DNA of 64,000 bases from Fibrobacter sp. UWP2 (lineage in GTDB: Bacteria > Fibrobacterota > Fibrobacteria > Fibrobacterales > Fibrobacteraceae). Within the stretch, counting starts at the first letter, position 1; each line of letters begins with the position of its first letter. The position numbers and the translations under genes were made by a program. The DNA lies in NCBI RefSeq assembly GCF_900141705.1, contig NZ_FQYM01000013.1, positions 1-64,000 of the forward strand, given 5' to 3'. Under the pieces are notes generated by a model that saw nothing but the letters and a program-made list of their open reading frames with translations, ran no database searches and was not told the origin of the DNA. This document shows, piece after piece, positions 57,301 through 59,617 of this stretch.

Positions 57301-57807
57301 ATGAAAAAGATTGCTGTATTCGCCGGTTCCTTTGACCCGTTCACTTTGGGCCACTTGGATGTCGTGAAGCGCGCCTCGGCCTTGTTCGACACGCTTTGGA
57401 TTGTGGTCGCGCAGAATGCAAATAAAAAGAATCTGTTTGACTGCGTTACCCGTGCCAAGATGGCAAAGAAGGCTGTTGCGGGATTAAAGAACGTGAAGGT
57501 CGCCGTACACGAGGGGTTGACGGTCGACTTTATGAAGTCTGTGGGTGCCGATTTTTTGGTGCGCGGGATTCGCGGGGCTTGTGACCTGGATTTTGAACAG
57601 AGCGTTGCCTGGAACAACAAAACCCTTTGCTCTAGTGCCGAGACGGTGCTTTTGCTGAGCGCCTCGGAACACCTGGCCGTTAGCAGCAGCGTGGTGCGTG
57701 AACTGCTTTTGTGCGGTGAATCGCTTGCGGCAAAAAAGAAGACCCTTGCGAAGTTTGTGCCCTCGAATATTTTGAATGAACTTTTAACCGAATTCGGAAA
57801 AATCTGA
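57301..57807 (+). CDS. coaD: Phosphopantetheine adenylyltransferase
   Basis: CoaD performs the penultimate step of coenzyme A synthesis. The 168-residue protein begins AVFAGSFDPFTLGHLDVVKRA, containing the (T/H)xGH nucleotidyltransferase motif, and has FLVRGIRGACDLDFEQSVAWNN and SSSVVRELL. It heads a run with the rhomboid and PfkB genes (TGATG and TAATG overlaps). Start is probably leaderless. Confidence 0.96.
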   Translation: MKKIAVFAGSFDPFTLGHLDVVKRASALFDTLWIVVAQNANKKNLFDCVTRAKMAKKAVAGLKNVKVAVHEGLTVDFMKSVGADFLVRGIRGACDLDFEQSVAWNNKTLCSSAETVLLLSASEHLAVSSSVVRELLLCGESLAAKKKTLAKFVPSNILNELLTEFGKI

Positions 57808-58658
57808 TGAAACCTTTCCGCTTTTTGCCCAAGGCCATTCGAGTCCTCTTGGTTGCCAATGCGGCTGTTTTTGGCATTGCCTTTTTGCTGGGCTCTGTTT
57901 TGGGGCTCCACTTGAATTTGCCGGGCGCCGGCTACGGGAACATCCGTGACTACATCGTGTACTTTGGCGCGTTTTTCCCGACGAGCCCGCTCGAAGCCTG
58001 GCGTTATGTGACGTACATGTTTGTGCATGTGGATTTTTGGCATTTTGTGTTCAATATGCTTATGCTGTGGATGTTCGGCGACGAGGTTGCCGAGTGGATG
58101 GGCGCAAAGCACTTTACGTCGATGTACATGTTCTGTGGCGTGTTCGCTGCCTTTTTCAGTTTTGTCCTTTGCATTCTGGGGCTTACGAACAACCCTATTA
58201 TTGGCGCTTTGGGGGCGCTCATGGGAATCTTTGTGGCGTACTACAAGTTCTTCCCGGAACGCCGTATATTGCTGTTTTTCTTTTTCCCGATGAAAATCAA
58301 GTACGCCATGTGGGTGATGGTCGCCCTCGATATCCTCATGGCGCCCTCGGGTGATGGCGTGGCGCATTTTGCCCACTTGGGCGGCGTGGTCGCCGGCTTC
58401 GTTTACATGGCTTTTTATCAGGGTGGTTTTGACCGCCTGCTGGGGAATTTGCGCCGTCCCCACGTGCAAAAGGAATCCCGCCGTGCCGAGGGCCCGGAGG
58501 TTCTGGAAGGCGAAGTCTTTTACGTGGACGAACAAAAGCGCATGAATGAAATTTTGGACAAGGTGAATCGGGAAGGGGTCCAGTCGTTGACGGAATCCGA
58601 GCGCCAGTTTTTGTTGAAGGCGGGGGACAAGCTCCGTCGCCGCCGTGGAGGCATGTAA
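57807..58658 (+). CDS. Rhomboid-family membrane protein lacking the catalytic serine
   Basis: A 283-residue membrane protein with the rhomboid topology. TM2 carries FVHVDFWHFVFNML with the expected His and Asn (His74, His79, Asn83), and the last core helix has AHFAHLGGVVAG with catalytic His190. However, where rhomboid proteases have GxSG, this protein reads GALG (133-136), Leu135 replacing Ser; the TTG codon (58209-58211) is one transition from TCG. A soluble C-terminal tail ends VQSLTESERQFLLKAGDKL, common in bacterial rhomboids. It is probably an inactive (pseudo-)rhomboid. Coupled to coaD and pfkB. Confidence 0.85.
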   Translation: MKPFRFLPKAIRVLLVANAAVFGIAFLLGSVLGLHLNLPGAGYGNIRDYIVYFGAFFPTSPLEAWRYVTYMFVHVDFWHFVFNMLMLWMFGDEVAEWMGAKHFTSMYMFCGVFAAFFSFVLCILGLTNNPIIGALGALMGIFVAYYKFFPERRILLFFFFPMKIKYAMWVMVALDILMAPSGDGVAHFAHLGGVVAGFVYMAFYQGGFDRLLGNLRRPHVQKESRRAEGPEVLEGEVFYVDEQKRMNEILDKVNREGVQSLTESERQFLLKAGDKLRRRRGGM

Positions 58659-59617
58659 TGAAGAAAGTTCTTGGCATGGGCGCAGCCCTGGTAGATGTTT
58701 TGGCGAATGTGACGGACGAATGGGTCGCGACGCAGGGCGTGCAAAAAGGCGGCATGAATTCTGTGGAATGGCCGCAAATGGAAAAGTTTTTGGCGGGCAT
58801 CGAAAAGCCCTTGCGCGTCCCTGGCGGTTCCACCTGCAATACGATGGTCGGGCTCTCTCGCCTTGGCGGGAAAGCGTCCTTTATTAGCAAGGTGGGCGAC
58901 GATGAACTGGGTCGCCTGTTTTTGGACCATCTCAAAAAGAATGGCGTGGAATCCAAGGTGGGCAAGAGCGACGTGGCCACGGGTTGCGTGTTCTCGGCGG
59001 TGACGCCCGATGCGCAGCGCTCCATGTGGACGTTCCTTGGCGCCTCTAATTTTTTGGACAGCGAAGACTTTGTGCCGGCGCTTTTTGACGGTGTCGGTCT
59101 CCTCTATGCCGAGGGCTACCGTGCGTTCAACGGAGACTGCTTCAAGAAATCCTTTACGCTCGCCCGCAGCCTGGGTGTGGAAACTGCTCTGGACTTTAGC
59201 AGCTTTGGCGTGGTCGAAGCCTGCCGCGGGGTGATTGACGAGCTCTTGGACCAAAAGATGATTGACATCGTGATCGCCAACGAAGACGAGGCCTTCGCCT
59301 ATGCGGGCGTCAAAGAAGAGGCTTCGCTAGAAGTGCTCGCCAAAAAGGCCAAGGTGGCCGTAGTCAAGGTGGGCAAGAAGGGCGCCTTCATTGCCAAGGA
59401 CGGCGTGGTGACCAAGGTCGATGCCAAGGTGGTGAAGGCTGTGGATACCACAGGTGCCGGCGACCTTTGGGCGTCGGGATTCCTCTATGGCTACCTTAGC
59501 GGCTGGGACATGCTGCGTTCCGGCAACCTCGCCAGCCTTGTGGCGAGTGAAGTGGTACAGGTGATGGGAGCCCAGATTCCCGACGAGGGCTGGGCCCGAA
59601 TTCATGCCGAAATGTAG
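58658..59617 (+). CDS. PfkB-family carbohydrate/nucleoside kinase
   Basis: A 319-residue ribokinase-superfamily enzyme resembling adenosine/ribokinase types. Motifs: GMGAALVDVLANV at the start, PGGSTCNTMVGLSRLGGKASFISKVGDDELG, the anion-hole signature DTTGAGDLWASGFLYG with catalytic Asp, and IVIANEDEAFAY. Starts in the TAATG overlap with the rhomboid gene. Substrate cannot be fixed from sequence; adenosine or a sugar are likely. Confidence 0.87.
   Translation: MKKVLGMGAALVDVLANVTDEWVATQGVQKGGMNSVEWPQMEKFLAGIEKPLRVPGGSTCNTMVGLSRLGGKASFISKVGDDELGRLFLDHLKKNGVESKVGKSDVATGCVFSAVTPDAQRSMWTFLGASNFLDSEDFVPALFDGVGLLYAEGYRAFNGDCFKKSFTLARSLGVETALDFSSFGVVEACRGVIDELLDQKMIDIVIANEDEAFAYAGVKEEASLEVLAKKAKVAVVKVGKKGAFIAKDGVVTKVDAKVVKAVDTTGAGDLWASGFLYGYLSGWDMLRSGNLASLVASEVVQVMGAQIPDEGWARIHAEM

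Follow-up and report, generated by a model that had tools for sequence, protein, structure and literature searches.

The window, a stretch of 64,000 nucleotides from the Fibrobacter sp. UWP2 genome, carries a gene for a rhomboid-family membrane protein in which a leucine codon stands at the position of the catalytic serine. The gene, its neighbours and the sites discussed below are as follows.

57301..57807, + strand: cytidylyltransferase-like gene, upstream neighbour (ORF; PF01467)
57807..58658, + strand: rhomboid-family membrane protein gene (ORF, 283 aa plus stop; PF01694; AlphaFold model; GlpG structural matches)
58026..58028, + strand: codon for His74, conserved histidine of the second membrane helix (H in 106/108 rows, 2 gaps)
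58041..58043, + strand: codon for His79, second membrane helix (H in 106/108 rows, 2 gaps)
58053..58055, + strand: codon for Asn83, second membrane helix (N in 107/108 rows, 1 gap)
58209..58211, + strand: codon TTG for Leu135, where the GxSG motif has its catalytic serine (Ser in 147/147 other rows of the combined alignment)
58374..58376, + strand: codon for His190, catalytic histidine of the Ser-His dyad, in AHFAHLGG (H in 108/108 family rows)
58530..58613, + strand: segment for the C-terminal DUF6576 match, residues 242-269 (PF20216, E=1.7e-6, 28.5 bits; cut-off 27.3)
58658..59617, + strand: pfkB-family sugar kinase gene, downstream neighbour (ORF; PF00294, E=1.3e-44)

The coordinates of the DUF6576 segment and of the His74 codon were computed from the ORF start at 57807. 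The upstream neighbour encodes a protein that we take to be CoaD, and a gene for an RsmD-like methyltransferase lies farther upstream of the rhomboid gene. The order CoaD-rhomboid-PfkB is kept in all 30 loci compared (L003-L032, the window counted), and the gene order around the rhomboid is also conserved in genomes that carry the serine.

The encoded protein belongs to the rhomboid family by its match to the Pfam Rhomboid domain over residues 63-203 (PF01694, E=1.8e-30, 106.5 bits against a cut-off of 22.6). An AlphaFold model built from 30 sequences (mean pLDDT 85.1) has six predicted helices of membrane length, as read from the model, and the PDB structures that it resembles most are those of GlpG (6pjq_A, E=5e-5, target-normalised TM-score 0.74); together these identify a rhomboid fold. 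Derlin and iRhom chains also occur among the structural matches, ranked lower than GlpG. The PDB sequence matches of the protein are GlpG as well. The GlpG rhomboid proteases, which we take to be members of MEROPS family S54, share with the window protein the Rhomboid domain and fold (GlpG of Escherichia coli and Haemophilus influenzae), and the conserved His and Asn of the second helix, like the His of the last, are kept. The window protein differs from GlpG in having leucine for the nucleophile serine, in bearing a C-terminal DUF6576 tail, and in scoring 30 bits where the NCBIfam GlpG cut-offs are 250-335 bits. It also falls below the cut-off of the rhombosortase model TIGR03902 (46.5 bits against 84). 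The DUF6576 match in the tail is weak, yet above its cut-off. The linker joining the membrane domain to this tail (58446-58530) varies in length and sequence among relatives while the tail itself is conserved, which suggests a separate cytoplasmic function for the tail.

Leu135 lies in a GALG motif within NNPIIGALGALMGIF, its TTG codon is in frame with the 283-aa ORF at 57807-58658 (+), and the orthologues in the family alignment read GASG at this place. We take residue 135 to be the nucleophile position from the GxSG motif, and the family alignment also places it there, with serine in 147/147 other rows; around Leu135, pairwise alignments with GlpG made by HMMER are out of register by 1-3 residues, and the profile matches shown end short of residue 135. 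A scan of the sequence by eye for an alternative nucleophile found no Ser, Thr or Cys from Gly133 to Gly140. Other residues expected of an active rhomboid are in place, namely the catalytic histidine of the last helix (His190, H in 148/148 rows of the combined alignment) and the second-helix histidines and asparagine (His74, His79 and Asn83). His187 is present too, and these five residues are invariant wherever a family row (n=108) has a letter. His79 and Asn83 are presumably oxyanion-type residues, judging by GlpG. What is missing from the features of an active rhomboid is the GxSG serine of the fourth membrane helix, replaced by Leu135. The preliminary description had read the motif as GALG in place of GxSG with leucine at the serine position, had listed the second-helix His/Asn and His190 as kept, and had placed TTG one base from TCG. 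The first two observations hold at the residues just described. In the genome G028 the codon is TCG, a single C-to-T step away.

Serine at residue 135 is otherwise universal among the relatives compared. In the alignment of 108 family rows, leucine occurs only in the window and all 107 other orthologues have serine, as do the 40 rows fetched from outside the family. Of the 111 family genomes, 108 gave a match (the three without, G027, G051 and G109, are 71-77% complete), and 164 genomes of the phylum matched, 56 of them outside the family, from which the 40 were taken. Twenty-three named Fibrobacter loci proved to be the same sequences as 23 genomes already counted, and were counted once. Three fragments (L080, L110 and L055) span residue 135, and all have serine. 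The serine codons of the 107 orthologues are TCG (46), TCT (28), TCC (16), AGC (9), TCA (6) and AGT (2). A degenerate DNA pattern for the leucine version matched one of 80 genomes of the genus, the window genome itself, and a scan of viral contigs for a further copy of the site returned 0 stretches. As far as the alignments tell, Ser135Leu lies beyond the normal variation of the family. An orthologue of the same genus, L079 (G017:C9), is far more divergent than the window copy (53% identity, a branch of 0.89, 11 departures at conserved columns) and still has serine.

These counts bear on what the preliminary description had offered as explanations. It had called for a comparison of orthologues and had named serine in them as half of what would speak against it; that half is what was found, with serine in 107/107 family and 40/40 outside sequences. 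An evolved pseudoprotease would show catalytic loss across a lineage, and here the serine is lacking in 1 of 108 family genomes and in 0 of 40 outside. The description's first reading, a pseudo-rhomboid, is not upheld in the sense of an established lineage: the loss is common to no relative, no second active-site residue is lost, and constraint shows no sign of having changed (see below). Such a lineage was rejected because no other genome shares the leucine. The alternative it had allowed, a point mutation or a sequencing error, fits the data, since all relatives examined keep serine.

The window genome has a second rhomboid gene, L002 (G000:C21:48027-51437; ORF 1012-2022, + strand, 336 aa from the ATG used). 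By eye, GFSS replaces GxSG in this protein and GHAYG lies near its end, so both Ser and His are probably kept. It scores 63.9 bits with PF01694, above the cut-off, and 36.3 bits with the rhombosortase model, below 84. In two other genomes, G151 and G152, long open frames around the rhomboid (613 and 773 codons) appeared fusion-like at first sight. This reading was dropped: in L175 the rhomboid has a start ATG of its own within a high-GC frame that is poor in stops, with no fusion domain identified, and for L176 the ORF list has no long frame containing the rhomboid.

By identity of the neighbouring genes, the closest genome is G028 (CoaD 80%, PfkB 89%), the one with the TCG codon. The rhomboid tree groups the window with L009, L004 and L005, whose codons are AGC, TCT and TCC respectively, at a support of only 66. 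Given this low support and the preference of the neighbouring genes for G028, the exact sister of the window is unsure. TCG is the commonest serine codon (46/107) and lies one transition from TTG, and the ancestral codon was probably TCG.

Apart from residue 135 the gene looks like any other member of the family. Conserved columns were defined as those at or above 93% in 105 rows (the fragments L080, L110 and L055 left out), giving 70 columns, and the window departs from them at one, residue 135. Two residues are private to the window when compared with all other rows, L135 and, in the variable linker, N214. The pN/pS values between the window and nine relatives are 0.195-0.255, inside the range of pairs that both carry serine, and the window's median pN/pS for the membrane domain takes rank 18 among 77. 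In 18/18 relative-rate comparisons, lineage-specific changes are fewer in the window than in L004, L005 or L009. At the remaining 69 conserved columns, which amount to about 166 nonsynonymous sites, 0 changes are seen, while synonymous divergence from the nearest relatives is greater than 1. If constraint lapsed with the loss of serine, the loss is unlikely, at the 95% level, to date back more than about 0.018 substitutions per neutral site, a bound that presumes neutral evolution after the loss and is uninformative if the protein kept a constrained role. These results leave three cases: the substitution is very recent, it is an error, or it is old and the protein has stayed fully constrained without its nucleophile. 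A decaying pseudogene was ruled out because the frame is intact and no further conserved column has changed, and an old loss under relaxed selection was ruled out by the pN/pS values, the relative rates and the neutral bound.

On balance, we lean towards a private mutation of very recent date, C to T at 58210 (TCG to TTG, Ser135Leu), confined to this strain or species as sampled. Under this explanation, an ordinary Fibrobacter rhomboid protease gene, vertically inherited, would have gained the transition, and the T at 58210 would be a real base. Fold, membrane topology and the remaining active site would have stayed as they were. Without the serine nucleophile, attack on the peptide bond would be impossible, so the allele should be proteolytically dead. 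In the available part of a study on Shigella, the serine mutants GlpG S201A and Rhom7 S133A left a TatA reporter uncleaved and were inactive (PMC7232013). Cleavage by rhomboids requires the serine, and the Leu135 allele should therefore be dead too. The cost would be that substrates go uncleaved, perhaps orphan or misfolded membrane proteins, and the genome's other rhomboid might, or might not, make up for this. A null allele is tolerable, going by the same source: Shigella deleted for both rhomboids showed no detectable effect in the conditions used there (PMC7232013).

The same facts are accounted for by an error in the consensus, in which the true base at 58210 is C, residue 135 is serine and the protein is an ordinary active rhomboid, the T having come from sequencing, assembly or a mixture of strains. 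We regard this as a serious possibility, if a somewhat less favoured one. Leu135 stands alone as a change in a column that is otherwise invariant, nothing else points to decay, all relatives examined have serine, and a random error would equally give Leu135 as the sole private change at a conserved column. The assembly is a draft of 72 contigs (3.23 Mb), and a run of G directly follows the codon (TTGGGGGCG). Against an error, the assembly looks good (100% complete, 0.71% contamination), there is no positive sign of an error at 58210, and the neighbouring genes show neither frame breaks nor radical private changes in clusters. Where the other 36-39 genomes are constant, the RsmD-like protein has one private change (I5V), CoaD has none and PfkB has two (A223S and I262V); these are mild, and with them the window genome carries private changes besides Leu135. 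In a smaller set without G028 the counts become 4, 0 and 12 for RsmD-like, CoaD and PfkB, so they depend on whether a close relative is included. A bad assembly is not indicated by these neighbours, and a single wrong base is still compatible with them.

A third explanation is that the species has fixed Ser135Leu and maintains the protein as a membrane adaptor that does not cleave and that would, for instance, present clients to FtsH. This seems very unlikely. It is in keeping with the constraint on the remainder of the protein and with the Derlin and iRhom chains found below GlpG among the structural matches. It also has a precedent in Bacillus subtilis YqgP, where, in the available part of the report, the S288A form acts as an FtsH adaptor without proteolysis (PMC7231995). 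YqgP S288A is thus an engineered bacterial rhomboid that lacks the same catalytic serine and keeps its adaptor function; YqgP itself is naturally active and its dead form is laboratory-made. The adaptor role there requires the N-terminal domain and an open, unoccupied active site (PMC7231995, in the part available), which a bulky leucine may not suit. Constraint seen after a very recent change would look the same as inherited constraint, and the change is common to no relative. His190 and the oxyanion-type residues are all kept, although a pseudoprotease of long standing could lose them freely, and the neighbourhood, conserved in serine-bearing genomes, hints at no new role. The eukaryotic iRhoms and Derlins have the rhomboid fold without a working catalytic site, as stated in the available part of PMC12615303. 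These inactive families are ancient and conserved, and have new domains or partners; the window, in contrast, offers one sequence, one base away from an active-looking family. No natural bacterial rhomboid with leucine at the nucleophile position was found in the literature text available, that of PMC2989971 and PMC4467639 included, which is not proof of absence. For Fibrobacter together with rhomboid, the literature, in the text available, gave only single uses of the word 'rhomboid' under unrelated titles.

What the leucine codon means differs with these explanations. An error would be of note solely as a caution about naming pseudoenzymes on the strength of a single assembly. It is highly improbable that the allele is real, fixed and an adaptor, which would make it a natural bacterial rhomboid at the first, one-base step toward a pseudoprotease; a fixed and functional allele would show the pseudoprotease state starting from a single substitution, a start modelled until now only in engineered proteins, YqgP S288A for instance. 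Should the base be real, as under the recent private mutation that we favour, the window would provide another naturally occurring null allele of a bacterial rhomboid, and modest evidence that the protease is dispensable in this strain.
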